Below the pieces are notes generated by a model. It was not told the DNA's origin. It saw only the letters and a program-made list of their open reading frames with translations, and did not search any database. From NCBI GenBank assembly GCA_026708285.1, contig JAPOVF010000376.1, positions 1-38,355 on the forward strand: a stretch of 38,355 nt of DNA, written 5' to 3'. Positions within the stretch are counted from its first letter, which is position 1, and every line of letters begins with the position of its first letter. Positions 1,105-21,956 of the stretch are shown here, in pieces. Source of the DNA: Acidobacteriota bacterium. GTDB lineage: Bacteria; Acidobacteriota; Thermoanaerobaculia; Multivoradales; Multivoraceae. Both the position numbers and the translations under genes were made by a program.

Positions 1105-1754
1105 TGCCAAAGGTCGCGATCAGGAGCCTCGACAACGAGGCGGTCGGCAGCCTCGAGCTGCCGGAAGAGGTCTTCACGTATCCGTACAACGAGCACCTGA
1201 TCCACCTGGCGGTGGTGTCGGTCCGGGCCGCCCAGCGGGCGGGCACGCACAGCGTCAAGGGCAGGCACCAGGTACGCGGCGGCGGGGCAAAGCCGTATCG
1301 GCAGAAGGGCACCGGTCGAGCTCGCGCAGGCAGCATCCGTTCGCCGCTCCGGCGCGGCGGCGGCGTCGTCCACGGTCCACATCCGCGCAGTCACCGCAAC
1401 AAGTTGTCGCGCAACGAGAAGCGGAACGCGCTCAAGTCGGCGCTCTCGCGCAAGCTGGCCGAAGAGCGGATCGTCGTGATCGACTCGCTCCAACTCGACA
1501 GCCACAAGACGGCCGCCCTGGCCGCCCGCCTTCGGGACCTGGGGATTGACGAGAAGACGCTGATCGTCGACGACCGGGGCAACCGGAACCTGATCCTGGC
1601 TTCCCGCAACCACCCGAAACTCAAGACGGTCGATGCGCTGGGTGTCAATGTCTACGATGTCGTCGATCGCGGCTACCTGCTGTTCAGCGAGAGTGCGATC
1701 GGCCGCCTGTCCGCGGTGCTGCAGAAGCGGCGGAAGAACGGGAGCCCGTCATGA
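1104..1754 (+). CDS. rplD: 50S ribosomal protein L4
   Basis: L4 lines the polypeptide exit tunnel with L22. In Escherichia coli it also represses the S10 operon, but no such leader can be seen here. The 216-residue protein shows the tunnel-loop signature [20 protein letters not shown] and then [15 protein letters not shown], followed by a C-terminal domain with KTLIVDD and the [12 protein letters not shown] segment. The start codon overlaps the rplC stop by one base, and the gene overlaps the rplW start by four. Both junctions point to coupled translation in one operon. Confidence 0.96.
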
Positions 1755-2038
1755 GAGTGCAGGAGGTGTTGCGCCGGCCGCTGATCACCGAGAAGTCGAC
1801 GGAGCTTCGGGACGAGCGGAACATCATCGCCTTCGTCGTCGACTCCCGGGCCAACAAGATCGAGGTGCGGCGCGCGGTGGAGGCCCAGTTCCAGGGCGTC
1901 AAGGTGGCGGAAGTCCGGATCGTGAACATGCACGGCAAGGTCCGCCGCCAGGGCCGCTACGTCGGCCGCCGTCCCGACTGGAAGAAGGCATACGTACGAC
2001 TGGCCGAAGGCCAGATCGAACTCTTCGACAACGTGTAG
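1751..2038 (+). CDS. rplW: 50S ribosomal protein L23
   Basis: L23 sits at the tunnel exit and is the docking site for trigger factor and SRP. The 95-residue product starts with [13 protein letters not shown], the standard L23 opening, and continues with [17 protein letters not shown] and the [21 protein letters not shown]-terminal part. It overlaps rplD by an ATGA junction. Length is normal. The partner order rplD-rplW-rplB is conserved across bacteria. Confidence 0.96.
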
Positions 2039-2052
2039 CGAGAGCCAGGAAC

Positions 2053-2883
2053 ATGGCGATCAAGAAACTCAAACCGACCAATCCGGCCAGCCGCTTCCAG
2101 GAGTACGCGCAGCGTCTGGAGGTCACGACCGACAAGCCGCACAAGGCCCTCGTCGAGGGCAAGAAGCGGATCAGCGGCCGCGGCAACAAGGGACGGCAGA
2201 CGCTCCGCTTTCGGGGCGGCGGGCACAAGCGCCGCTACCGGCGGATCGACTTCCGGCGCGACAAGATCGGCGTGCCCGCGAAGGTGGCCACGATCGAGTA
2301 CGACCCGAACCGGAGCGCGCTGATCTCCCTTCTGCACTACGCGGATGGGGAGAAGCGGTACATCCTCCATCCCCAGGGCCTGAAGGTGGGTGCGGTGGTT
2401 CAGTCGGGAGAAGGCTCCGAGATCGACGTCGGCAACTGCCTGCCGATCCGGTTCATCCCTCTGGGCACGATGATTCACAACATCGAGCTGAAGATCGGCG
2501 GCGGCGGGCAGATGGTGCGCAGCGCCGGAACGGGCGCCCAGTTGATGGCCAAGGAGGGCGTCTACGCTCAGATCCGCCTTCCGTCGGGCGAGGTTCGCCG
2601 GGTTCACATCGACTGTTCCGCCACGATCGGCCAGGTCAGCAACTCGGAACACTCCAACATTGCGCTCGGCAAGGCCGGCCGCAAGCGCTGGCTGGGCCGC
2701 CGGCCGCACAACCGCGGCGTGTCGATGAATCCGGTCGACCATCCGATGGGCGGCGGCGAGGGCAAGGCCTCTGGCGGACGGCATCCGACCACGCCCTGGG
2801 GCAAACCGACGAAGGGCTACAAGACGCGGAGAAACAAGCGCACGACCGGCATGATCGTACGGCGGCGGGGACGTCGGAAGTAG
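2053..2883 (+). CDS. rplB: 50S ribosomal protein L2
   Basis: L2 is a core 23S-binding protein needed for subunit joining and peptidyl-transferase activity. The 276-residue protein begins [15 protein letters not shown]. It carries the RNA-binding domain ([17 protein letters not shown]) and the late signature [16 protein letters not shown] with the conserved histidine implicated in the peptidyl-transferase region. The ATG at 2053 is chosen because the frame is open far upstream through rplW, while conserved L2 sequence begins exactly here, 14 bases after the rplW stop. Confidence 0.97.
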
Positions 2884-2913
2884 GACCGGCGAAAGCACGA
2901 AACAGAGGTCAAC

Positions 2914-3201
2914 ATGGGACGTTCACTCAAGAAGGGGTTCTTCATCGACAACCACCTCTACGACAAGGTGACGGCGATGAATGCGAGCCACGACCGGAGG
3001 GTCATCAAGACCTGGTCGCGCCGCTCCACGATCATTCCGGACATGGTCGGTCACACGATTGCCGTTCACAACGGCATGAAGTTCATCCCGGTCTTCGTCA
3101 GCGAGAACATGGTCGGGCACAAGCTCGGTGAGTTCGCCCAGACCAGGACGTTCCGCGGTCATGCGGGCGGCAAGAGGGAGCGCCGAGCGCGCCCGCGGTA
3201 G
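2914..3201 (+). CDS. rpsS: 30S ribosomal protein S19
   Basis: S19 forms a complex with S13 in the 30S head and contacts the A-site finger. The 95-residue product shows the full family pattern: [12 protein letters not shown], then [22 protein letters not shown], then [22 protein letters not shown] at 2904-2908 is a suitable ribosome-binding site for the ATG at 2914. It lies between rplB and rplV as in the standard S10 operon. Confidence 0.96.
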
Positions 3202-3219
3202 TTCGAGAGAGACAGAACG

Positions 3220-3576
3220 ATGGAATCAATTGCCCGACTCAGGTACCTGCAGGCGTCGCCGCAGAAGGTGCGCCTGGTGGCGGACCTGATCCGCGGCCGG
3301 GATGTCGAGGAGGCCTCGACGCTGCTGCAGCTTTCCACCAAGGCGGCCGCGCGGCCCCTCGCCAAGCTGCTGCGGTCCGCCGTCGCCAACGCCGAGAACC
3401 GCGACGCGGCGGTCGACGTGGGGCAGCTCTACGTCAAGGAGATCTTCGTGGACGGCGGTCCGACGCTGAAGCGTCTGCGGCCCCAGCCCATGGGCCGGGC
3501 GTTCCGCATCCTGAAGCGGCAGAGCCACGTCACGATCAAGCTCGATTCCCGCGGCGCCGCGGCAGAGCCAAGCTAG
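3220..3576 (+). CDS. rplV: 50S ribosomal protein L22
   Basis: L22 reaches into the exit tunnel opposite L4, and its beta-hairpin is the site of macrolide-resistance changes. The 118-residue product shows [20 protein letters not shown] at the N-terminus and the hairpin region [20 protein letters not shown] followed by [12 protein letters not shown], all standard. It starts 18 bases after rpsS and ends eight bases before rpsC. Confidence 0.96.
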
Positions 3577-3584
3577 GAGCGTTC

Positions 3585-4235
<651 letters not shown>

Positions 4236-11809: not shown

Positions 11810-12187
11810 ATGGCAAAGGCGAGGAAGAAGGAAAAGCGCGTCGTGCCCCACGCCGTGGCGCACGTCAACGCGACCTTCAACAACACACTGGTCTGCATCA
11901 GCGATCCGGACGGCAACGTTCTGACGTGGTCGTCGTCGGGCCGAAACGGTTTCAAGGGATCGAGGAAGGGAACGCCGTTCGCGGCCCAGGTCGCCGCGCA
12001 GGCGGTCGGCTATCAGGCCAAGGACCTCGGCGTCCGGTCGGTCGACGTGCTGGTCAAGGGTCCGGGAGGCGGCCGCGAATCGGCCGTCAGAGCCCTTCAG
12101 GCCACTGGCATCAGCATCCGATCGATCCGCGACGTGACGCCGATTCCGCACAACGGCTGCCGCCCCCGTAAGCGGCGTCGAGTCTAG
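11810..12187 (+). CDS. rpsK: 30S ribosomal protein S11
   Basis: S11 sits on the 30S platform near the Shine-Dalgarno helix. The 125-residue product begins [20 protein letters not shown] and has [40 protein letters not shown] and the [19 protein letters not shown] end. The frame is open further upstream inside rpsM, but ATG 11810 gives the conserved start, with GAAAGG nine bases before it. Normally rpsD follows, but here the next gene is rpoA after 79 bases. Confidence 0.97.
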
Positions 12188-12256
12188 ACCCGCAACGCTT
12201 CGCCGGTAACCGAACCGAGACATCAACGTTTCAACCTGGAACGCAATCGAGATTGT

Positions 12257-12261
12257 AGGAG
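12257..12261 (+). promoter_or_regulatory. Shine-Dalgarno sequence of rpoA
   Basis: AGGAG ends five bases before ATG 12267 and overlaps the first base of the in-frame GTG at 12261. This decides for the ATG as the rpoA start. Confidence 0.6.
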
Positions 12262-12266
12262 TGAAC

Positions 12267-13253
12267 ATGCTCTGGAAGGGATTCCAACGCCCGAAGCGGG
12301 TCGAAATCGATACCGAGACCCTGACCGATACCTACGGAAAATTCTCGGCTCAGCCGTTCGAACGCGGCTTCGGCGCCACGGTCGGCAACGCGTTGCGCCG
12401 CAGCCTCCTCGCGGCAATCGAGGGCGCGGCGATCACCGCGGTGCGGATCGACGGTGCGCTGCACGAGTTCTCTTCACTCGAAGGGGTCGTGGAGGACACG
12501 ACGGACATCATTCTGAACCTGAAGCAGGTGCCGCTACGCTCGTTCGACGACACGACGCGGGTCATCACGCTGGACGTGACGGGCCCGCGGGAAGTGACGG
12601 CGGGTGACTTCAACGGCGACGCGAGCGTCGAGATTCGCGACCCGAACAGCAGGGTGGCGACGCTGAACGAACGGGGCCGGCTCCGCCTCGAGGCGCAGGT
12701 CAAGAACGGACGCGGCTACGTCGGCGCGGACCGCAACCTGGATGAGTCGATGGGCATCGGCTGGATCCCGCTCGACTCCGTCCACAGCCCGGTGAAGCGC
12801 GTGAACTATCGCGTGGAGGCGGCGCGACTTGGCCGGACCACCGACTTCGAGCGGTTGGTCTTCGAAGTCTGGACAGACGGCACGGTGACGCCGGAAGAGG
12901 CGGTATCCCGCGCCGGCACCCTGCTGCGCGACCACCTGACGATCTTCATCGATGCCGAGGAGAGTCTGGTCGTCGAAGTGGCGGCCGAGGAGGAAGTCGA
13001 TGGCGGCGATATCAGCGCCCTGCTCCTGAAGGAGATCGACGATCTGAACCTGAGTGTTCGCTCGGCGAACTGCCTGAGAAACGCCAATATCAACACGGTT
13101 GGCGACCTCGTCGTGCGGAGCGAGAAGGAGATGCTGGAGACGAAGAACTTCGGCCGCAAGTCGCTCGAAGAGATCCAGAAGGTGCTCGACAGGATGGGAC
13201 TGACCTTCGGCATGGAGCTTCCGGAGAACGCGGAGAGCGGCGTCCAGGCCTGA
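12267..13253 (+). CDS. rpoA: DNA-directed RNA polymerase subunit alpha
   Basis: The alpha subunit dimerises to nucleate RNA polymerase assembly, and its C-terminal domain binds UP elements and activators. The 328-residue product has an N-terminal domain (residues about 1-230) with GFGATVGNALRRSLLAAIEG and EFSSLEGVVEDTTDIILNLK, and, after a linker, a C-terminal helix-hairpin-helix domain with LNLSVRSANCLRNANINTVG and TKNFGRKSLEEI. An AGGAG five bases before ATG 12267 favours it over the GTG at 12261. It lies between rpsK and rplQ; rpsD, usually before it, is absent. Confidence 0.97.
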   Translation: MLWKGFQRPKRVEIDTETLTDTYGKFSAQPFERGFGATVGNALRRSLLAAIEGAAITAVRIDGALHEFSSLEGVVEDTTDIILNLKQVPLRSFDDTTRVITLDVTGPREVTAGDFNGDASVEIRDPNSRVATLNERGRLRLEAQVKNGRGYVGADRNLDESMGIGWIPLDSVHSPVKRVNYRVEAARLGRTTDFERLVFEVWTDGTVTPEEAVSRAGTLLRDHLTIFIDAEESLVVEVAAEEEVDGGDISALLLKEIDDLNLSVRSANCLRNANINTVGDLVVRSEKEMLETKNFGRKSLEEIQKVLDRMGLTFGMELPENAESGVQA

Positions 13254-13295
13254 CGGCCCCTGGACCGCCTTCGAGCTTCCCGCAAAGGAGCGAAG

Positions 13296-13658
13296 ATGCG
13301 TCACGGAATTGGCTACAAGAAACTGGGCCGGACGACGGCCCACCGGCGGGCAATGTTCCGCAACCAGCTCGCCTCCCTGGTGGAGCACGGCAGGATCCAC
13401 ACCACCCTGGCCAAGGCCAAGGCCCTGCGCCCGGTCGCCGAGAAGGTGATCACGCGGAGCCGCGACGACTCTGTCCACGCCCGGCGCCTGGTACGCCGCT
13501 GGCTCCCGAATCGCGACCACGTCAAGAAGCTCTTCGACGAGATCGCCCCCCGCTACGCCGACCGCCCCGGCGGCTACCTCCGCATCACGAAGCTCGGCCC
13601 CCGCCGAGGCGACGCCGCCGAACGCGCCGTCATCGAGTTCGTCGACACCGACGAGTAG
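13296..13658 (+). CDS. rplQ: 50S ribosomal protein L17
   Basis: L17 is a 50S protein next to the tunnel exit. The 120-residue product begins MRHGIGYKKLGRTTAHRRAM, continues FRNQLASLVEHGRIHTTLAK with AKALRPVAEKVITRSR, and ends with the RITKLGPRRGDAAERAVIEF part, all typical. It is the last gene of the ribosomal cluster and is followed by two short hairpins and then by the accessory island. Confidence 0.97.
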   Translation: MRHGIGYKKLGRTTAHRRAMFRNQLASLVEHGRIHTTLAKAKALRPVAEKVITRSRDDSVHARRLVRRWLPNRDHVKKLFDEIAPRYADRPGGYLRITKLGPRRGDAAERAVIEFVDTDE

Positions 13659-13690: not shown

Positions 13691-13705
13691 GCCGCCTTCG
13701 GCGGC
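13691..13705 (+). terminator. second hairpin after rplQ
   Basis: A perfect GCCGCC/GGCGGC stem with a TTC loop. It lies 11 bases after the first hairpin and has no T run behind it. It may reinforce termination or protect the 3' end of the message. Confidence 0.35.
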
Positions 13706-13734
13706 AGAGTGGCGCGACGGCGTCGGTTGCACCC

Positions 13735-13909
13735 GCCTGCCGCGGGCCGAAGGAGGGGGTCCCAGCGGACGCTCGCACTTTCTGAGTAGATGAGAGGGGG
13801 GTGCTCGCTTCGGTCGGCTACGCTCCGGTTTGGCGTCGGACGATGAGTGGGCGTCGACCGTCGCTTGCCGACAGCCCGCTGGGACCCCCTCCTTCGGCCC
13901 CCGGCAGGC
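13735..13909. repeat. 34-base inverted repeat with 107-base spacer
   Basis: The arm at 13735-13768 and the arm at 13876-13909 are reverse complements over 34 bases with a single mismatch (position 13743 against its partner). Both contain the block GGGCCGAAGGAGG or its complement. As RNA this would form a long, very stable stem. It could be a miniature mobile element, a transcription end structure or an island boundary site. No flanking target duplication was found by eye. Confidence 0.75.
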
Positions 13910-13918
13910 TGGAGGTCG
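13792..13918 (+). repeat. dispersed intergenic repeat, copy A
   Basis: This stretch aligns, with one 14-base insertion and scattered mismatches, to the complement of 19711-19821. Shared blocks include TGGCGTCGGACGA (13831-13843), CCCTCCTTCGGCCC (13887-13900) and TCGCTTCGGTC. The two copies bracket the accessory island in opposite orientation. Each lies just downstream of the 3' end of the flanking chromosomal gene (rplQ here). Confidence 0.7.
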
Positions 13919-13990
13919 TCTGTCAGCACCACATCGGAGCCAGGCCACTCCTGGACGCCGAAGTTCCCTCCGAGCGAACCTTCGGAGCTT

Positions 13991-14245
13991 CTACGTCGGA
14001 CCGCACGAGCGGGTGTGCTCGTCTTCGCCGCGTTGCCTTCGCACCCAGGCTGCCGGATCCTCGTCCCAGTCGTGGCCCGTATCCGGGATCGACCCGAGCG
14101 CGCTCTCGATGTCCTCCCAGCGTCGCCGATCGTCGGCGAGCCCGAGCCGGATCAGATGCGCGATGTAGGCGCATCGCTGCCGGGGACCGACACGCCGGTC
14201 GAGTTCCGCCACCAGTTCGTCGTCCAATGCGATGTGCAAACGCAT
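13991..14245 (-). CDS. ribbon-helix-helix antitoxin-like protein
   Basis: The 84-residue product begins MRLHIALDDELVAELDRRVG, a beta-strand and helix pattern typical of ribbon-helix-helix proteins. It continues with a helix (RCAYIAHLIRLGLADDRRRW) and an acidic tail containing SIPDTGHDWDEDPAAWVRRQ. From memory this resembles VapB-type antitoxins that precede PIN-domain toxins. RHH antitoxins bind their own promoter and neutralise the toxin. No toxin gene follows: the downstream DNA is the border repeat. A possible five-codon toxin start (GTG at 13932, MVLTD) is cut off at the repeat. The gene is probably an orphan or relic. The RHH fold call is fairly good; the toxin link is inference. Confidence 0.6.
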   Translation of the reverse strand: MRLHIALDDELVAELDRRVGPRQRCAYIAHLIRLGLADDRRRWEDIESALGSIPDTGHDWDEDPAAWVRRQRGEDEHTRSCGPT

Positions 14246-14393: not shown

Positions 14394-15395
14394 CTAGGTG
14401 ACCCCCAAGACACACAGAGGTGTCGCTACTTCAGCCCGAATGAACTCCATATGCAAGTCCCTTCTGGGCTCAATCTCCTCGTTCCGGTCCAACGGCACAA
14501 CCACTGTACCTCCGCAGCAAACGCCCTCTGTGCGACCGCGCGCGTAGATCCCACTAAGGTGTTCAATTCTACCTCTACTTGGCAGCACATCTGCACAGTG
14601 TTTGGACAGCTGCGTACACACCACGCGGGCTGCGGGGCTCACTTCCCGGAGCATCTCGACAATCTCGGGTTTGGGATTCTGTCCCTTCTTCCGACCGAAC
14701 GAGAAGACAACAACCGACGGCGACACGGCGGCGAGAAACCGCCTCGCGAACGCCCGCACCGATCCCGAACGCAGCCCGCCGCCGTGGTGCGGGAACACGA
14801 CAATCGCGGCCTCAGTACATTGCGGTGACGCGGCGAGCCAATTGTCGAGGCCAACCTCGTCTAGGTCCCCCGGCAGCAGTGCAACGTGCCGCCCACCGGC
14901 ACTGACTCGTATCACGGCACTCATCGAGTTCGTCCTGAGTTTCCGACCAGAGCGATCGGTGCTGCCTGCACTCTTCGCGGCTAGGTATCGACTCGGCGCC
15001 AACACCTCGATCTCCACGTCGTCGAACACCTCTCGACGGCCAGCCACGAGCTCGACATTGAACTCCAGACGACCTGCCCTGTGCTCTGAGTCCAACTCGT
15101 ACGCGAGATCGTCCCAAACCTCGGTCTTTGAAAGCGCACTCGCGTTGGCCACGACGCGATCCACAGTGACCTTTCTCGAACCGATTAGACTCAAGAGTCC
15201 AGCAATGTGATCTTCATCGGCGTGGGACAAGTAAACGCTCCGAATGCGCGTTAGCCCCTCCTGGAGCAAGAAATCGAGCAAAGAGCTGCCACGCGCCGCG
15301 TCAAAGACCACTACCTCATCCGTGCCAGCGTCCAAGACGGCACAGTTACCGTGACCTACGTCGAGAATACAGAGACGCCTCGAGGATCTCCCCAT
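14394..15395 (-). CDS. ComEC-like metallo-beta-lactamase-fold hydrolase
   Basis: The 333-residue protein begins MGRSSRRLCILDVGHGNCAV, the first strand pair of a ComEC/Rec2-type metallo-beta-lactamase fold. The metal-binding motif is SHADEDH at residues 57-63 (HxDxDH, the ComEC variant of HxHxDH). Later come LLPGDLDE, with the bridging aspartate, and FPHHGGG, with a further histidine ligand. There are no membrane segments, so unlike ComEC it is a soluble stand-alone enzyme. The substrate is unknown; nucleic acid or a phosphodiester signal is plausible. The ATG at 15395 is chosen because GGGAGG lies ten bases upstream and the fold begins there; the open frame runs 36 codons further upstream inside the receiver gene. 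It starts two bases after the receiver gene stop and is last in the four-gene operon. Confidence 0.8.
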   Translation of the reverse strand: MGRSSRRLCILDVGHGNCAVLDAGTDEVVVFDAARGSSLLDFLLQEGLTRIRSVYLSHADEDHIAGLLSLIGSRKVTVDRVVANASALSKTEVWDDLAYELDSEHRAGRLEFNVELVAGRREVFDDVEIEVLAPSRYLAAKSAGSTDRSGRKLRTNSMSAVIRVSAGGRHVALLPGDLDEVGLDNWLAASPQCTEAAIVVFPHHGGGLRSGSVRAFARRFLAAVSPSVVVFSFGRKKGQNPKPEIVEMLREVSPAARVVCTQLSKHCADVLPSRGRIEHLSGIYARGRTEGVCCGGTVVVPLDRNEEIEPRRDLHMEFIRAEVATPLCVLGVT

Positions 15396-15397
15396 GG

Positions 15398-16054
15398 CTA
15401 TGAGTCCTCCCAAGAATCGAAGAACATCTCTTCGTGGCAGTCCGCACCGATGTTCACCTGCGCGTGAAAGCGCCGACCCGGCGAGACGAGAGGCTGTAGC
15501 CAATCTGGAACACTATCTCGATCCAACGGGATCTTCTGGCGCGGATGAAACGCCGGAACGACGACGTAGATGTTACGGGTGCCTGGCTCCACGTCCGCAA
15601 CGCGCACAAGTGCACGCCACGGCCTCCGTTTCGGCTCGAACTCACCCCGCATCTCCAAGATGCAGGTACGCCACGCTTCCACCAAGGCGTCGGCATCAGG
15701 GCGATCGCTTGCAAGTCTTGCCGGTATGCACCGCAGATAGTCGCGTCGGATCTTCCCAAAGACGTCCGCAAGAGCAGAACAGAGCACGCCCGGAATCGCC
15801 TCTTTGAAACAACCATTCAGGAGTTCGTCACCCTCGCATGTGGAGTAGTTTCGTGCGCGTAGATGGTAGTCGCACACGAGGGCATCGGTGGGCCTGAGCT
15901 CTTCGAAGAAGTTGTCAGACTCGACCGGCCCCTCCACGGAGAGCGCCTCTAGCCCGAGGTCCTCGACGGAGTAGCCATAGGCGGTCCTTGCTCGGGGATC
16001 GTCATCAACGATAAGAACTCGCTCGATAGTGCGGCCTTCCACCTGCATCGTCAT
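15398..16054 (-). CDS. receiver-domain protein with unknown C-terminal domain
   Basis: The 218-residue protein has an N-terminal response-regulator receiver domain. LIVDDD at residues 15-19 gives the acidic pocket, CDYHL gives the phospho-acceptor aspartate at residue 62, and CSALAD gives the switch serine near 93. The usual lysine-proline near the end of the domain appears replaced (CIPARL). Residues from about 125 to 218 form a region I do not recognise, with RALVRVADVEPGTRNIYVVV and a DWLQPLVSPGRRFHAQVN segment. It is not a known DNA-binding output domain. GGGAG six bases upstream supports ATG 16054. The gene starts two bases after the kinase gene stop, so it is presumably the phosphotransfer partner of that kinase. 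Confidence 0.75.
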   Translation of the reverse strand: MTMQVEGRTIERVLIVDDDPRARTAYGYSVEDLGLEALSVEGPVESDNFFEELRPTDALVCDYHLRARNYSTCEGDELLNGCFKEAIPGVLCSALADVFGKIRRDYLRCIPARLASDRPDADALVEAWRTCILEMRGEFEPKRRPWRALVRVADVEPGTRNIYVVVPAFHPRQKIPLDRDSVPDWLQPLVSPGRRFHAQVNIGADCHEEMFFDSWEDS

Positions 16055-16056
16055 GT

Positions 16057-18123
16057 TCAACTCCCAAGAATGGGAAGCTCCACACCCAGCACCGCCCCGC
16101 CGAGCTCGCCGTGTGCCACCGCGCTCACGCTTCCGCCTAGATCCCTAGCGGCATCGCGGACAATCGTTAGCCCGAGACCCGTCCCGTTCCTTCGTGTCGA
16201 CCTGCCGGGCAGCCAAATCTCGTCTAGGCCGATCCCCACGATTCCAGGCCCACTGTCTTCAACCCTGAGGATCCACCGGTTGCTCGTGATACTCGTTTCG
16301 ATTCTCAGGACTCTCTTTCGCGTGCCCGCATCCTCGAAGGCAGCAAGACTGTTGGTAAGCAGGTTCGCAACGATCGCTTCGATCGCAGCCTCACTTCCCC
16401 TCAGGTAGGGAGCGCCATCGAACAACGACACGTCCAGATCGACGTCGCGACCGCGTACGAATGGCCCATACAAGGCCACGGAGTCCTCGATCACGCTGTG
16501 CAGATCGACCCGTGCGTACCGCCTCTTCTCATGATTCACTAGGCGAAGAGTCGCGGCCCCGAGTACGGACACGCTCTCTACCGCGGTCCGAATGCTCTCG
16601 ACCGGACCGCGGAGGAACTTGTCGTAGGAATCTCCCACTAGTTGCTTGGCCCGACGCGCGATCGCCTCCACCGAGTGCGAAATCACCTTGATCGAACTGC
16701 CACTTGACTCGTGAGCGAAGGTTACGGCCGTGATCCCCGCAGTACTAAGGGTTCGATAGAGTTGCACCTCTTTCTGCAAAGCCCGCACTTCCCGGTCTCT
16801 AGACTTTTCGTATCGCTGAAAGGCCTTTTCAATGTTTGGCCGCACGTCTCCGGGCGCTCTTCCTATTGCCTGTTCCACTTGAGCTGCCGCAGCGCCGCTC
16901 CGCTTTGGCGCTTCCACACGCTCCTCATCGCGACGCTTCTCAGCCTCGACCAACCGCCTTCTAGCCATCCAGTCAAGCGCATCCTGACCAAAGGCCCTAA
17001 TGTCGAGGAAGACCTCGTCTTCAATGAAACCTGAGCGATCTGTCTTCTGGACGAGAAGGTCACCCGCGTCCCCAACCTCCACGCGCCCAATCGACGTATT
17101 CGTGCTCGGGCGTTCTTCCGGACTTCGCACACGACGTAGGTTCATCTCCAGCCAGTCGTTACCCGGATTGCCATAAGGGCTGACGCGAAGTCCGTTGTAG
17201 TAGAAGTGCACTCCGCCAAACTCCCTCAGCCACTCCCGCACCTCGGAGACACTAGAACGCCTTGTGGAGAACGTCTGTTGGTTCAGAATGAAGACCCACA
17301 GGTTGAATAGCACGGGTGGGCACTCGTACTTCCGCTTGCCACGGGCACGTACGAGGTCCTCGTGGCACGCCGCGAAGAGAGTGTGTCCCTTCCAGTCCTT
17401 GACACTTGCTCGGGCGAGGCCGTTCGAGTCCACTGCTGCTTCCAAGTGGTACTCGGCATCCTGAAAGTAGCGAGCCTGAACGAGTGCCTCAAGATCTCGG
17501 TACTCTTCTGCCTTCAGGTCGGGACGGAAGCCGCTGGGGTCGTCTCCGAAAGGGTCAGCGAGCAAGATCAGTTCACGGGCGAGCCGCTTCACGGACATGC
17601 GCCCGAACCCGGACTTCAGGTTGTCAACCCGGACCTCAGTCCCGTTACGAACTTCGGGGTCACGCTGGCTGGTTTCGATGTGGAGTACGACATCCTCCAC
17701 GACGTCCGCAGCATCGAAACGCGCCCAGTCGATAAGAAGACGATGCTCCTCCCCTTCCCCGATGCGCTCACGAGTCTTCAAGAGTGCTTTGGAGCCCATG
17801 CGGAGAGCCGCCAACCGGCCAAGGCCCTTGCTACCGGCCGGAGTCCTTCCTAAAGGAGTCGTCGCGGCCTCGATCTTCTTTGAGCGACCTAGAACGAGCC
17901 AGCCATTGACTATCTCGTCAACGGACATTCCGTCACCATCGTCCGTGACCACCACCGCTCCGCCTGGGCGTTCTGCCTCTAGGAGCTCGACCACGCAGTG
18001 TCTAGCGTCCGCGTCATAGGCGTTCTTGACAAGCTCGAGAACGCCCTTCTCAAGGCTGGGGTTTAGCTCTTCACCCAGACGCCGGAGGATCTCCGAGGAG
18101 AACCGGAGGTGAGCCCTCTTCAC
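16057..18123 (-). CDS. double-GHKL protein: Hsp90/MORC-like ATPase plus histidine kinase
   Basis: The 688-residue protein has two GHKL ATP-binding modules. The first (residues about 1-200) is Hsp90/MutL/MORC-like: N box ELVKNAYDADA (30-40), G1 box DDGDG (61-65) and G2 box GSKGLGRL (98-105). The middle (about 200-400) resembles the S5-like transducer part of such ATPases only loosely. A charged helix (about 390-455) leads to a dimerisation segment with a candidate phospho-histidine at 471 (TFAHES). It is followed by a standard kinase catalytic domain: N box VANLLTNSLAAFED (586-599), G1 EDSGPG (622-627) and G2 GTGLGL (647-652). No transmembrane segment is seen, so it is cytosolic. It starts at a GTG overlapping the methyltransferase stop by four bases. 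Paired GHKL modules suggest that ATP-driven clamp closure is sensed and passed on by phosphorylation; that is inference. Confidence 0.8.
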   Translation of the reverse strand: MKRAHLRFSSEILRRLGEELNPSLEKGVLELVKNAYDADARHCVVELLEAERPGGAVVVTDDGDGMSVDEIVNGWLVLGRSKKIEAATTPLGRTPAGSKGLGRLAALRMGSKALLKTRERIGEGEEHRLLIDWARFDAADVVEDVVLHIETSQRDPEVRNGTEVRVDNLKSGFGRMSVKRLARELILLADPFGDDPSGFRPDLKAEEYRDLEALVQARYFQDAEYHLEAAVDSNGLARASVKDWKGHTLFAACHEDLVRARGKRKYECPPVLFNLWVFILNQQTFSTRRSSVSEVREWLREFGGVHFYYNGLRVSPYGNPGNDWLEMNLRRVRSPEERPSTNTSIGRVEVGDAGDLLVQKTDRSGFIEDEVFLDIRAFGQDALDWMARRRLVEAEKRRDEERVEAPKRSGAAAAQVEQAIGRAPGDVRPNIEKAFQRYEKSRDREVRALQKEVQLYRTLSTAGITAVTFAHESSGSSIKVISHSVEAIARRAKQLVGDSYDKFLRGPVESIRTAVESVSVLGAATLRLVNHEKRRYARVDLHSVIEDSVALYGPFVRGRDVDLDVSLFDGAPYLRGSEAAIEAIVANLLTNSLAAFEDAGTRKRVLRIETSITSNRWILRVEDSGPGIVGIGLDEIWLPGRSTRRNGTGLGLTIVRDAARDLGGSVSAVAHGELGGAVLGVELPILGS

Positions 18124-19433
18124 GGTTCACGCCACCAGGGCATATCGGCAAGGACTCCGATCGTCAGGTGCCTGCAGCAGAGCCTCCGATTGATCCACCT
18201 GTCAGTCCTTCCAGACTTGAGTCGGGTCATGAGTTCCCGGCAGGTCTCTAGTGACCCGTCCCTGGGCGAGAGGACGATCAGGTGGTTCTCTACGGCGACA
18301 CTCTCTTGGCCAAGGACAATAGTCGCAACAGCACGCTTCTTCTGACTCGGCCGCGAGGTTCTCCGGACGGCGACAAAAGGCGGTTGGAAGAGACGCCCCT
18401 TGAACCTGCGTTGCTCTGGAACCCTTCCACATTCGCCCCAAGCTTCAAGCGAGCGGGCGTGGACGTATGGATGTTCAGGCCCTACCTCGTTGTGACGGTG
18501 GGGAACCACAGGCCCTACGTGCACAGCAAAGCGTGCACGTACCGTTCCCTGATTTCGAGGCGTGCTGGATTCTGATGGCCCTGAAGTTCTTTGAGTCGGG
18601 GCCTTCTTGACTAGGTCCCACTGGTACACATTAACGTCAGCCCACTTATCGAAGAGGCCGAGTAAATGCTCTCCACGGATCGAAGCCATGACCCTTATCG
18701 ACCGACGCCACCGCTCGTACCGACTACCTGAGCGCAGAACGTCAGGCAGAATCGCAGCGACTTGCGTGCCTTCCCGAGATTCGCGAACCGCCTTTTCCAA
18801 GAACAACGCCGCCGCGTTCACTCTCCCAGTGGCCCACGGGCAGCCGTCAGGCGTTTGAGCGTAGGCGAAAGGCGGGTTCATGAGCACGAAGTTGGCGTCA
18901 CGAACGCCTCGACCGCACGCAAGATAGTCTCTTGCTTCGATTCGCGGGAATGCAGAGGCCAGTTCCTCTGCCCGCAGACTTGGGCGCAAGCGGCACCGCT
19001 TCGCTGCAAGTAGAGCGAGTCGTGCCTTCGTGAGGCGCACGAACTCCGGTGAAATGTCGCAGCCCGCGAGCCGCCGGCTCCAGAGCTTCAGAGTCGCGGG
19101 AATCGTCGGGCCGATCGGAAGCGACCTGGCGACAGCGATTAGGAGGTCCCCACCACCGCAGGCAGGGTCGCAGTAAACGCTCGCAGAGGCTGGATCTACC
19201 GGGACACCCTCAACTAGTTTGGAGGCCAGTCTTCGCGTAGTGAAGTAGGCGCCTTGCCTTCTCAACTGCGCTGGCGATTCTTCCTGTCGAAGGACTCGGG
19301 CAGGCTCACCGTCCAGGCACACGCCTAGACGTCGGTCCCACTCGGTAGAGCTCAGAACTTCGCTTCCCTCAACGAGACGCTCAAGGGTCCTGATGTAGCG
19401 GCGGGAGTTCAGAGCCTCCGGAACGGTGCCCAT
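18120..19433 (-). CDS. N6-adenine DNA methyltransferase, gamma type
   Basis: The 437-residue protein has the GAYFTTRRLASKLV entry motif, the SAM-binding motif I CDPACGGGDLL (around residue 90), CDIS (motif II region) and catalytic motif IV MNPPFAYAQ (NPPF). This order marks a gamma-class N6-adenine methyltransferase of the HsdM/Eco57I kind. The C-terminal third (FQPPFVAVRRTSRPSQKKR, then ENHLIVLSP and CCRHLTIGVLADMPWW) resembles the built-in target-recognition part of such enzymes. No nuclease domain is present and none is encoded nearby. No clear Shine-Dalgarno site precedes the ATG, which lies three bases after a small open frame. It is first in the operon and likely provides DNA marking for the module. 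Confidence 0.82.
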   Translation of the reverse strand: MGTVPEALNSRRYIRTLERLVEGSEVLSSTEWDRRLGVCLDGEPARVLRQEESPAQLRRQGAYFTTRRLASKLVEGVPVDPASASVYCDPACGGGDLLIAVARSLPIGPTIPATLKLWSRRLAGCDISPEFVRLTKARLALLAAKRCRLRPSLRAEELASAFPRIEARDYLACGRGVRDANFVLMNPPFAYAQTPDGCPWATGRVNAAALFLEKAVRESREGTQVAAILPDVLRSGSRYERWRRSIRVMASIRGEHLLGLFDKWADVNVYQWDLVKKAPTQRTSGPSESSTPRNQGTVRARFAVHVGPVVPHRHNEVGPEHPYVHARSLEAWGECGRVPEQRRFKGRLFQPPFVAVRRTSRPSQKKRAVATIVLGQESVAVENHLIVLSPRDGSLETCRELMTRLKSGRTDRWINRRLCCRHLTIGVLADMPWWREP

Positions 19434-19859
19434 CGTTCAAGCCACGCAGGGCACAACCACTCGGCCGGTTTCCGGCAGACGTGCCAACGCTTCTGGGGTC
19501 GCCAGACACGGTCCACCCCTCCCGGGAGCGCGCGAGCGGTTGTGACTAGACTCCTTTGGCACAGACATGGCTACTAGCCCATTGATCCACGGACGTAGCA
19601 AGGCAGAGCCTACAAGGTGGGCCAACCGCGACAAAGTCGGCGGTCTACGAGTTCGAGATGGAGTGCAGCCCGCTTCGGGCGGCGTGAAGAACGTGAAGTC
19701 GCTCGTCCGGCGACGTCCAGCCGGCAGTGGGCCGAAGGAGGGTGTTCAAGTGGGCTTCGGGCAAACGAGGCCGATGCCGACTCGTCGTCCGACGCCAGAC
19801 CGAAGCGATCACTCCCTTCCCATCCCACAAGGTGGTAGCCGGCGGGCCGCCCTGGCCGG
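19434..19859. other. intergenic border region, right side of the island
   Basis: No firmly supported gene is seen. On the - strand a 43-codon open frame (19437-19568, starting MSVPKESSHNRSRAP) ends three bases before the methyltransferase ATG and has no clear ribosome-binding site. The rest holds a GCCCG/CGGGC hairpin (19668-19680), repeat copy B (19711-19821) and a hairpin at the end of the EF-G-like gene (19838-19860). A promoter for the methyltransferase operon should lie here, but I could not place one. Confidence 0.7.
19711..19821 (-). repeat. dispersed intergenic repeat, copy B
   Basis: The complement of this stretch aligns with 13792-13918. Identical blocks are 19785-19797 (13 bases) and 19729-19742 (14 bases), plus GACCGAAGCGA near 19798. 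Copy B lacks a 14-base segment present in copy A and lacks the left arm of the 34-base palindrome. Relative to its neighbour it lies downstream of the EF-G-like gene in the same orientation that copy A has to rplQ. Confidence 0.7.
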
Positions 19860-19860
19860 C
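19838..19860 (-). terminator. hairpin at the end of the EF-G-like gene
   Basis: GCCGGC at both ends (19838-19843 and 19855-19860), with an inner GGGC/GCCC pairing, forms a strong stem that begins at the last base of the stop codon. No T run follows on the - strand. It may be a terminator or a 3' end stabiliser. Confidence 0.4.
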
Positions 19861-21956
19861 TAGTCCTCTTCCTCGGCCCGCTTCGCTTCGGCGATGATCT
19901 TCTCCTGGATCTGGCGGGGGACTTCTTCGTAGTGGGAGAAGGCCATCGTGAAGCTGGAGCGGCCCTGGGTCATGGAGCGGAGGGCGGGGGCGTAGGTGAG
20001 CATTTCGGCCATCGGGACGGTGGCCTTGACGATCTGGGCGTTGCCCTTGGCTTCCATGCCCTGGGGGCGGCCGCGGCGGGAGGACAGGTCGCTCATGATG
20101 TCGCCCATGAAGTCTTCGGACGTGTTGATGTCGACCTGCATGATCGGTTCGAGCAGTGTGGGAGCGGCTTTGGCCATGGCGTCCTTGAAGGCGAGGGAGC
20201 CGGCGACCTTGAAGGCCATCTCGGACGAGTCGACGTCGTGGTACTTGCCGTCCTGGAGGCGGACGCGGAAGTTCCCGACCGGGTAGCCGGCGACGTAGCC
20301 ACGTCCGGCTGCCTCGAGGAGGCCCTTCTCGACGGCCGGCCGGTAGTTCTGGGGGATGGAGCCGCCGAAGATCTCGTCGATGAACTCGTACTCGTCCGCG
20401 GTGGCGACCGGTTCCATCGTGATCGTGCAGTCGGCGAACTGTCCCCGGCCGCCGCTCTGTTTCTTGTGCCGGCCGTGACCGACCGCGGTCCTTCTGATCG
20501 TTTCGCGGTAGGGGACCTTGGGCGGGTGCAGGATGACCTCGACCTTCGAGCGGCTCTTCAGCTTGGAGACCGCGATCTCGACGTGGAGCTGGCCGGCGCC
20601 CGAGAGCAGGAACTCCCCGGTCTGGGCGTCGCGGCCGGCGCGAAGGCTCGGGTCCTCCTCGACCAGCCGGTTCACCGCCTCGCCGATCTTCTCCTCGTCG
20701 CCCTTCGTCTTCGGCTCGATAGCGAACGAGATGGCGGCGACCGGCGGGGTGGGGAAGTCGATTCTCAGCGGACGTTCGCGGCTCGTGATCGAGTCGCCGG
20801 TGACGCTGCTCTTGAGCTTCGCGACGCCGCCGATGTCGCCCTCGAGGAGTCGCGGGACGTCACGGCCGGTCTTGCCCTGCATGTGCATCAGGTGGCCGAC
20901 GCGTTCCGCCTCTTCGCGTCGGGGGTTCCAGTAGCCGGTGTCGGAGCTCATGCAGCCCGAGGCGACCCGGAGGAGGGAGATGCGGCCGGTGAACGGGTCG
21001 TTCATCGTCTTGAAGACGATCGCGCTGACCGGTGCGCCGTCCCCGCGGTCGAGTTCCACCGGCTCCCCGCCCAGATCGCTGGCCGGCATCGAGCGGGCGC
21101 CGACCGGCGACGGCAACACCCTGACGATCGTGTCGAGCAGGGCGGAGTTGCCGATCCCGTGGCCGGCCGAGGACATGGTGACCGGGAACAGGGCCCGGTT
21201 CCTGATCGCGTTCTTGAGGCCCTCGACCAACTGGTCCTGGTCGAGGTCGCCCTGGTCGAAGTAGGCCTCCATCAGGTCGTCGTCACTCTCGGCGACGGCC
21301 TCGGTGAGCTGGCCGCGCCACTCGTCGATCTGGTCCTGCAGGTCGGCCGGCGGGTCGGACGGCTGGCTGCGGCCGTTGCCGTCGTGGTCGTAGACGTACG
21401 CCTTGCGGCTCAGCAGATCGACCACGCCGGTGAAGTCCTTGCCCGCTCCGATGGGGATCTGGAGCGGCAGCGCCATGCGGTGGAAGTTCTGTTGCAGTTC
21501 GGCGATGCAGCCTTCGAAGTCGATGTTGTCCCGGTCCATCTTTGTCAGGTGCAGCATCACGGGCTGCTCCAGAGCCTCGGCGATCTCCCACGCCTTCTCG
21601 GCCATGACCTGGGTCGGGGACGCAGCGTTCAGGCACAGCAGGGCGGCGTCGGCCGCGCGCATGCCCGAACTGCTCTCGTGGACGAAGATGCCAGAACCGG
21701 GACAGTCGATCAGATTGACCTTGTGCTCACCGGAACCGTCCGACCAGGGCGTGTAGCAGACGGCGAGGCCGATCGAGATACCGCGACGGATCTCCTCGTC
21801 GTCGAAGTCGGTCACGGTGTTGCCGTCCTCGACCCGGTTCTGCCGGTTGAACACCCCGCCTGTGTAGAGCAGACCCGCGAGCAGAGTCGTCTTGCCGGTG
21901 TCGTTGTGTCCGACGACGGCGAGGTTGCGTATCAGTTCCGAACTTTCGAGTTGCAT
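19860..21956 (-). CDS. elongation factor G-like GTPase (EF-G paralogue)
   Basis: The 698-residue protein has the full EF-G layout: GTP-binding domain, domain II, and domains III to V with LHVEIAVSKLKSRSKVEV and a C-terminal SDLSSRRGRPQGMEAKGNAQ. The GTPase motifs differ from true translocase. The P-loop is GHNDTGKTT (residues 16-24), switch I has RRGISIG, the DTPGH motif is DCPGS (84-88) so the catalytic histidine is serine, and NKxD is TKMD (138-141). This matches the EF-G-like (EF-G2) group, whose members are weaker or specialised GTPases; its exact role is unsettled. The canonical fusA is expected upstream of tuf outside the window. It lies 57 bases after the M16 pair and may be cotranscribed. 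Confidence 0.85.
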   Translation of the reverse strand: MQLESSELIRNLAVVGHNDTGKTTLLAGLLYTGGVFNRQNRVEDGNTVTDFDDEEIRRGISIGLAVCYTPWSDGSGEHKVNLIDCPGSGIFVHESSSGMRAADAALLCLNAASPTQVMAEKAWEIAEALEQPVMLHLTKMDRDNIDFEGCIAELQQNFHRMALPLQIPIGAGKDFTGVVDLLSRKAYVYDHDGNGRSQPSDPPADLQDQIDEWRGQLTEAVAESDDDLMEAYFDQGDLDQDQLVEGLKNAIRNRALFPVTMSSAGHGIGNSALLDTIVRVLPSPVGARSMPASDLGGEPVELDRGDGAPVSAIVFKTMNDPFTGRISLLRVASGCMSSDTGYWNPRREEAERVGHLMHMQGKTGRDVPRLLEGDIGGVAKLKSSVTGDSITSRERPLRIDFPTPPVAAISFAIEPKTKGDEEKIGEAVNRLVEEDPSLRAGRDAQTGEFLLSGAGQLHVEIAVSKLKSRSKVEVILHPPKVPYRETIRRTAVGHGRHKKQSGGRGQFADCTITMEPVATADEYEFIDEIFGGSIPQNYRPAVEKGLLEAAGRGYVAGYPVGNFRVRLQDGKYHDVDSSEMAFKVAGSLAFKDAMAKAAPTLLEPIMQVDINTSEDFMGDIMSDLSSRRGRPQGMEAKGNAQIVKATVPMAEMLTYAPALRSMTQGRSSFTMAFSHYEEVPRQIQEKIIAEAKRAEEED

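Follow-up and report, generated by a model that had tools for sequence, protein, structure and literature searches.

The window described here, a 38,355-nucleotide stretch of contig JAPOVF010000376.1 from an Acidobacteriota bacterium (assembly GCA_026708285.1), carries at 14394..19433 four genes of the - strand that encode a DNA methyltransferase, a kinase with two GHKL modules, a receiver protein, and a ComEC-like metallo-β-lactamase (MBL) hydrolase. The set is probably a mobile defence cassette of the restriction-modification (R-M) type whose restriction step is controlled by a His-Asp phosphorelay. The computed support consists of the four-gene unit, the active-site residues (apart from one receiver lysine), the receiver and MBL folds, and co-inheritance. 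It also includes the exchange of the effector for an HNH nuclease, several restriction partners of the methyltransferase family, and an insertion site common with restriction systems.

An open reading frame (ORF) check of the window bears out the place, strand, and gene junctions given in the first-pass annotation of this DNA. Gene 1 (18120..19433, 437 aa) encodes an N6-adenine (gamma-type) DNA methyltransferase, as judged from its ORF, Pfam, alignment, and profile, and overlaps by four bases with gene 2 (16057..18123, 688 aa, GTG start), the double-GHKL kinase. Gene 3 (15398..16054, 218 aa) encodes the receiver protein, composed of a CheY-like domain (residues 1-137) and a C-terminal beta domain (residues 146-216), and its best start is the ATG at 16054, leaving a gap of two bases. 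Gene 4 (14394..15395, 333 aa) encodes the ComEC-like MBL hydrolase, a predicted metal-dependent DNase effector. Its best start, the ATG at 15395, again leaves a two-base gap; a longer ORF with a TTG start reaches 15503 and would overlap the receiver gene by 106 bases. The Pfam scan returns the expected domain content, namely N6_Mtase, HATPase_c_3 plus HATPase_c, and Lactamase_B. The difference in base composition that had been noticed is also present, with a GC content of 0.59-0.60 over 15001-19000 against 0.64-0.70 elsewhere in the window.

A kinase-profile scan of bacterial and archaeal genome contigs gave a best 80 loci, among which an identity gap separates 35 loci at least 41% identical to the window kinase from the rest at 34% or less. 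These 35 loci, three plasmid loci, three viral-contig loci, and the window make up a strict family of 42, which is a sample. The receiver family is present at 40/42 strict kinases and the MBL family at 39/42, and both are found at 0/47 distant double-GHKL loci. The loci L040 and L044, where contigs end, are counted as misses for both families, and the MBL is also missing at L036 of Thiomargarita. Outside cyanobacteria, 27 of the 28 strict loci have the methyltransferase. Moreover, the pairwise distances of the four proteins are correlated over 23 complete cassettes (r 0.72-0.86, L039 and L043 excluded), and for each of the six protein pairs 0/2000 permutations are as high. The co-occurrence greatly exceeds chance expectation, and together with the distance correlation it supports the earlier proposal that the four genes are one unit, which is co-inherited.

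The strict kinases form one clade with 100% SH-aLRT support in a tree of 58 kinases. Their hosts, according to record titles and tree labels, belong to Acidobacteriota, Pseudomonadota, Bacteroidota, Rhodothermota, Planctomycetota, Chloroflexota, Actinomycetota, and Cyanobacteriota. Kinship in the kinase tree crosses these phyla, as the window kinase falls beside a pair from Acidobacteriota, and this group next joins kinases of Gammaproteobacteria, Bacteroidota, and Rhodothermota. Copies of the cassette are also found on plasmids and on IMG/VR contigs.

Active sites and folds of the four proteins

Kinase: The N-terminal part is a MORC/MutL-like GHKL ATPase (HATPase_c_3, residues 23-127, 17743..18057, Pfam E 5.5e-18), and the C-terminal part is a histidine-kinase ATPase (HATPase_c, residues 578-683, 16075..16392, Pfam E 1.2e-16). 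Profile matches in the PDB to MORC3, MORC2, and MutL agree with the initial assignment to the MORC/MutL kind, and the histidine-kinase part has ZraS as its best match. The N-terminal residues E30, N34, D61, G63, G65, G97, and K99 are kept in 41/41 readable rows, and the N and G motifs of the C-terminal ATPase in 40/40. The predicted phospho-acceptor His471 lies in an H-box, FAHE, and is encoded at 16711..16713. It is conserved in 40/40 readable rows, where the next residue is Glu in 39 and Asp in one (E472D), and it is invariant in a separate 17-row alignment that includes two distant kinases (17/17). The BbrUII/HgiDII restriction-enzyme model covers kinase residues 11-185 only, at 65.9 bits against the 550 needed for full-length membership.

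Receiver: The protein has no Pfam match at E 0.1, and its profile gives weak matches to known receiver structures (best E 0.004). The predicted structure has the CheY fold. D17, D18, and D62 are present in 42/42 rows and T/S93 in 41/42, and thus the fold and the DD, D, and T/S residues of CheY-like receivers are all found. Asp62, encoded at 15869..15871, is the predicted phospho-acceptor by alignment conservation. The C-terminal beta domain (15407..15619, from the DSSP assignment of the predicted model) has a strand order compatible with an OB/S1-like barrel. A Foldseek search of a viral library gives weak receiver matches to an S1-motif and an eIF2-alpha protein (73-78 columns, E 0.03-0.08), the matched range being taken to be this domain; beyond the receiver domain, that search gives weak matches at best. 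The beta domain of the model is described as OB-like in strand order, with its fold not established.

MBL hydrolase: The metal motif H58-x-D60-x-D62-H63 (15207..15224) is invariant and aligns with the ComEC HxDxDH of 9ic4. H58, D60, D62, H63, D177, H203, and H204 are conserved in 32/32 aligned rows, an alignment that holds a part of the MBL loci and excludes, as all alignments do, the MBL of L011, which is split by an insertion sequence and was not rejoined. The description as ComEC-like is upheld, since the MBL domain of ComEC is the best match by sequence and by structure, and residues 3-315 of the 333 align with that domain alone. The HxDxDH motif, the second Asp, and the HHG motif are common to both. 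In contrast to ComEC, in which the MBL (BLACT) domain is the tail of a competence membrane channel, the window MBL stands alone in the operon, and it would work like the ComEC domain without being a member of ComEC. Its family is further marked by four cysteines (C260, C267, C294, and C328) that are invariant in the C-terminal region and suggest a structural metal site or redox control. The MBL domain of ComEC is reported as a Mn-dependent nuclease in PMC8579336 and PMC12455585. The latter also assigns the metal motifs to Mn coordination, describes their mutation, and reports improved function of the nuclease domain when the same polypeptide includes an OB fold.

Methyltransferase: Motif I reads DPACGGGDLL and the catalytic NPPF occupies residues 186-189, with D89, P90, G93, N186, P187, and P188 invariant (27/27 aligned rows). 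The Pfam match to N6_Mtase is 21.3 bits, just above the cut-off of 20.4, and the profile matches M.BseCI and EcoKI M. Of the features of Type II R-M, a DNA methyltransferase with intact catalytic motifs is thus present, and no recognised restriction endonuclease family exceeds its cut-off in the four proteins. The REase_II matches in the PADLOC-DB 2023 scan span the GHKL part of the kinase only.

Sister systems and published relatives

Among the distant loci, 14/47 consist of a kinase, a receiver, and an HNH endonuclease of ~200-260 aa, one of them cut by a contig end. The HNH domain is assigned by Pfam in the 7/7 that were scanned, and in the rest by match to a profile built from those seven. 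A methyltransferase of the window's family is present in six of the 14, five times in the same upstream position and once, at L070, in convergent orientation. The sister systems L050, L055, L056, L060, and L065 share with the window the order of methyltransferase, double-GHKL kinase, receiver, and nuclease. In contrast to the window, their kinases are only 22-30% identical to the window kinase, the receiver keeps a canonical lysine, its C-terminal part looks different by eye, and the nuclease is HNH. A further 62 distant loci on viral contigs include eight of the HNH type, and a methyltransferase of this family accompanies four of the eight. The modules for marking and for cutting thus both look exchangeable, as in R-M systems. 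Two further loci are recorded beside these. At L036 of Thiomargarita (12108-13294), a strict-family kinase and receiver are followed by a PIN-domain gene in the place of the MBL, a possible third effector. At L013, a conjugative plasmid of Campylobacter coli (7995-12448), a distant double-GHKL kinase and a 340-aa response regulator are convergent to a C5 methyltransferase, with no adjoining nuclease gene annotated.

Relatives of the methyltransferase occur at 26 loci on viral contigs, 10 of which are linked to the kinase plus HNH or MBL. The other 16 comprise 13 without a kinase in the available stretch, two that end at the gene, and one weak match. All five scanned of the 13 kinase-less loci have a convergent HEPN and GmrSD_N pair beside the methyltransferase. 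On plasmids, 4/4 records with the family have an adjoining kinase, which is in pieces in two. The R-M setting that had been expected for this kind of ATPase is borne out by the HNH sisters, by restriction enzymes at the insertion site, and by the HEPN and GmrSD_N partners of the methyltransferase family. The viral loci L212, L213, L216, L217, and L218 (for example L213:5899-8935), in which the methyltransferase is convergent to HEPN (MAE_28990/RiboL-PSP) and GmrSD_N (DUF262-type) genes, possibly represent a separate three-gene restriction or RNA-targeting system.

Identity with a known system was considered and rejected, as PADLOC, NCBIfam, and Pfam give partial domain matches only. The first-pass annotation had not recognised a named system of this gene content, and PADLOC-DB 2023 likewise supplies none. 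Neither of the two outcomes that it had set as refuting its proposal, a lack of co-occurrence in other genomes or identity with a named system, has come about. Regarding MADS, mad2 is matched by the core of the methyltransferase only (E 1.4e-8, 20.8 bits versus 720 needed), and the other mad genes are unmatched. Detocs is a phosphorelay defence of kinase, receiver, and effector, and the cassette is alike in outline. In contrast, Detocs differs in effector and kinase type, and the cassette adds a methyltransferase. The PADLOC-DB 2023 scan has no Detocs match, the presence of Detocs in that library being unchecked.

The claim of novelty stands as regards the lack of a named match and falls as regards independence, because the cassette is a variant of a kind already described. 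In 2021, Bellieny-Rabelo et al. (PMC8011034) predicted a related two-component-like pair, HEF_HK / Response_reg_2, with links to R-M genes. The two have in common a kinase with HATPase_c_3, an H-box, and HATPase_c, an adjoining receiver-like gene, and R-M genes nearby, with HNH among theirs. By contrast, neither PF19191 nor PF19192 is matched by the window kinase and receiver, the receiver has 218 aa against their 600-aa query, the methyltransferase is of the adenine type against conspicuously C5 there, and the effector is an MBL. The words 'lactamase', 'metallo', and 'ComEC' are absent from the main text of PMC8011034. HEF_HK (PF19191) has no match in the window kinase at E 0.1; PF19191.5 weakly matches the distant double-GHKL kinase L049, at 20.8 bits, below the cut-off of 24.1. 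Response_reg_2 (PF19192.6) has no match in the window receiver at E 0.1, a result that rests on the window scan and in which the candidate positive controls, 10 distant partner proteins and two sister receivers, are silent too.

MORC-type GHKL ATPases are described in restriction operons in Iyer et al. 2008 (PMC2292703). The paraMORC/MORC systems of that paper resemble the cassette in that their operons combine a GHKL ATPase of the MORC/MutL type with methylase and endonuclease genes, HNH among them in the case of paraMORC1. They differ in that the window ATPase is fused to a histidine kinase, and 'receiver', 'two-component', 'phosphorelay', and 'metallo' are absent from the main text. No publication on this four-gene set was recognised among the PMC papers searched, preprints outside PMC and most subscription papers not being covered; PMC12137116 and PMC7824862 were considered and set aside. 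As far as the covered literature goes, the cassette is a variant of a known, experimentally untested kind.

Proposed relay-gated restriction and its alternatives

In the favoured reading, the methyltransferase, judging from its family and motifs, would mark host DNA. The kinase is presumably a soluble dimer whose N-terminal MORC/MutL-like ATPase would both clamp and sense DNA. When it meets unmarked or invading DNA, the clamp would activate the C-terminal histidine kinase, which would autophosphorylate on His471 and pass the phosphate to Asp62 of the receiver; both residues are conserved and the chemistry is predicted. The phosphorylated receiver, perhaps via its C-terminal beta domain, whose OB-like strand order may be compared with the OB fold that aids the ComEC nuclease, may then activate or deliver the MBL nuclease. 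The predicted output is degradation of foreign DNA by the ComEC-like MBL, and both this direction of signalling and protection from phages or plasmids are predictions.

Several findings weigh against this chain, some of them from cyanobacteria. The methyltransferase is present at 0/14 of the cyanobacterial strict loci, L028 among them being almost without upstream sequence. Across the genomes of 12 cyanobacteria and Thiomargarita, the family gives generic matches only (best 39.9 bits), and the profile used for the locus counts reaches at most 101 bits versus 200 required. Four further cyanobacterial carriers also give generic matches, the best at 35 bits. Among 339 cyanobacterial genomes sampled at E 1e-25, seven have the MBL, one has the methyltransferase, and none has both. 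The receiver and kinase are adjacent in all seven MBL-bearing genomes, and the active sites of all three proteins encoded by the cyanobacterial cassettes (kinase, receiver, and MBL) are intact. The methyltransferase is therefore dispensable in this branch, which is served either by another mark or by another signal. The original idea that the methyltransferase marks self and the clamp senses unmarked DNA accordingly cannot apply throughout the family. As a separate observation, the sole member of the methyltransferase family in the sample (L243, cyanobacterial genome G437, 1501-3794) adjoins a protein that by eye looks like the RelA/SpoT type, with no kinase in the 4.3 kb available.

The same three-gene cassettes favour an infection-sensing (abortive) system, in which the kinase-receiver-MBL core senses infection or DNA ends and not missing methylation. 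The methyltransferase would then only shield the host from the nuclease, or would be an accessory lost where other protection exists. However, its regular presence outside cyanobacteria and the R-M-like character of the HNH sister systems and of the insertion site argue against this explanation, which is unlikely, although it is the strongest of the alternatives.

The second difficulty lies in the receiver, where the canonical Lys after beta-5 is lost: the column before the invariant Pro is Ile in 40/42 rows and Lys in 0/42. The HNH sister receivers keep the Lys in 7/7 seed rows by eye. The proposal that phosphotransfer licenses the hydrolase is thus plausible from the conserved His471 and Asp62, but it is not secure because of the lost Lys. 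A phosphate-independent switch would account for this loss, with a pseudo-receiver and two GHKL modules that act as a conformational clamp handing DNA to the nuclease in the absence of His-Asp transfer. Against such a switch, the acceptor Asp62, the acidic pair, T/S93, and His471 are conserved as given above, and changes at DD, T, or K of receivers need not fully abolish phosphorylation, according to a review (PMC12632262). This explanation is rather improbable. The missing cyanobacterial methyltransferase and the lost Lys are together the reasons why the full chain of relay-gated restriction is rated no higher than probable and the infection-sensing system is kept in consideration.

Two further points also count against the favoured reading. 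The methyltransferases linked to HNH are 32-40% identical to that of the window and those linked to MBL 32-55%. The tree puts the HNH-linked ones in three parts, needing three changes, but a single origin is not rejected by the AU test (p 0.198), and exchange of methyltransferases between the MBL- and HNH-linked kinase lineages is not proven. In addition, Ser728 of ComEC, a putative DNA-binding residue, is Gly in the window MBL. A different phosphodiesterase activity of the MBL (RNase, second-messenger, or teichoic-acid type), which would turn the set into a signalling or cell-suicide module, is very improbable, given that no other domain matches it as well as the MBL domain of ComEC and that sister systems have an HNH nuclease in the effector position.

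In classical restriction, the nuclease reads the site itself and no signalling step is involved. The relay-gated cassette and its sisters might, as a tentative and somewhat doubtful generalization, form a restriction class with His-Asp-licensed cleavage, in which foreign DNA is recognised by a MORC-like clamp fused to a histidine kinase and interchangeable nucleases (ComEC-like MBL or HNH) are turned on through the receiver. With sensing, relay, and cutting on separate proteins, restriction could be given a threshold, be amplified, or be switched off, and one nuclease could be replaced by another. If this is true, the cyanobacterial branch, having dropped the methyltransferase, would act as a phosphorelay nuclease on its own and would distinguish self from non-self by other means. 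A concrete function and a readable output would be gained for the two-component-like R-M pairs of PMC8011034, bacterial MORC-like ATPases would be tied to a testable signalling role, and a ComEC-type DNase would become part of immunity. For experiments, nature provides ready comparisons in the swapped effectors and in the branch that lost the methyltransferase.

Insertion site and neighbouring genes

The cassette is flanked on one side by a + strand gene (13296..13658), presumably rplQ (L17) from its context, and on the other by a - strand GTPase gene (19860..21956), presumably EF-G-like. Among 396 sampled genomes of the phylum, 14 congeners included, the receiver, methyltransferase, and MBL families are found at the set cut-offs only in the window genome, few first-look candidates being scored per genome. 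A targeted look at the genus covered 21 genomes and 20 loci, one of which is the window's own. A distance of 0.15-0.9 kb separates rplQ from the EF-G-like gene in 8/19 congeneric loci, which leaves no room for a cassette. A full cassette adjoins rplQ in the congeners G411 and G414, encoded on the other strand than in the window; in G411 it is followed by the EF-G-like gene, and in G414 the contig ends before that point. Identity to the window counterparts is 55% for their methyltransferases and 48-49% for their MBLs, against ~93% for rplQ and 89% for the G411 EF-G-like protein. As the cassette proteins are far less identical than the flanking ones, this points to separate arrivals at one site.

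Restriction genes are found at the same site in other congeners. BsuBI/PstI-type restriction enzymes are near the EF-G-like gene in L191 and L194, and G414 has an XcyI-type enzyme and a second methyltransferase beside its cassette. The same rplQ/EF-G site also holds, at L191:12993-14797 and L192:14033-15642, another MBL-fold gene (296 aa) and an uncharacterised partner near a methyltransferase-like gene, and the L191 version of this neighbourhood is the one with the BsuBI/PstI enzyme.

The repeats that had been noticed around the set are present in the window at 13700-13920 and 19711-19807. They belong to a palindromic family of ~200 bases with more than 20 places in the genome and are not set-specific; as cassette borders they are rejected, being dispersed through the genome. 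A promoter scan of the cassette gives 0 sites. Just downstream of the MBL gene, an 84-aa ORF (13991-14245, - strand) has weak VapB/MazE/NikR-like similarity, all below cut-off.

Some copies of the cassette lie within ~7 kb of annotated anti-phage genes, such as HerA/DUF4297 and, for an HNH-type copy, Ppl. The neighbour survey considered 32 loci, of which L039 and L059 dropped out and two had no neighbour of the chosen size. PADLOC matches (E 1e-20) among the 81 neighbour proteins of the resulting 28 loci include a CBASS cyclase, a TIR effector, DrmMI, and type IIG enzymes, and are anecdotal. By Pfam, the neighbours also include many housekeeping and TPR genes.

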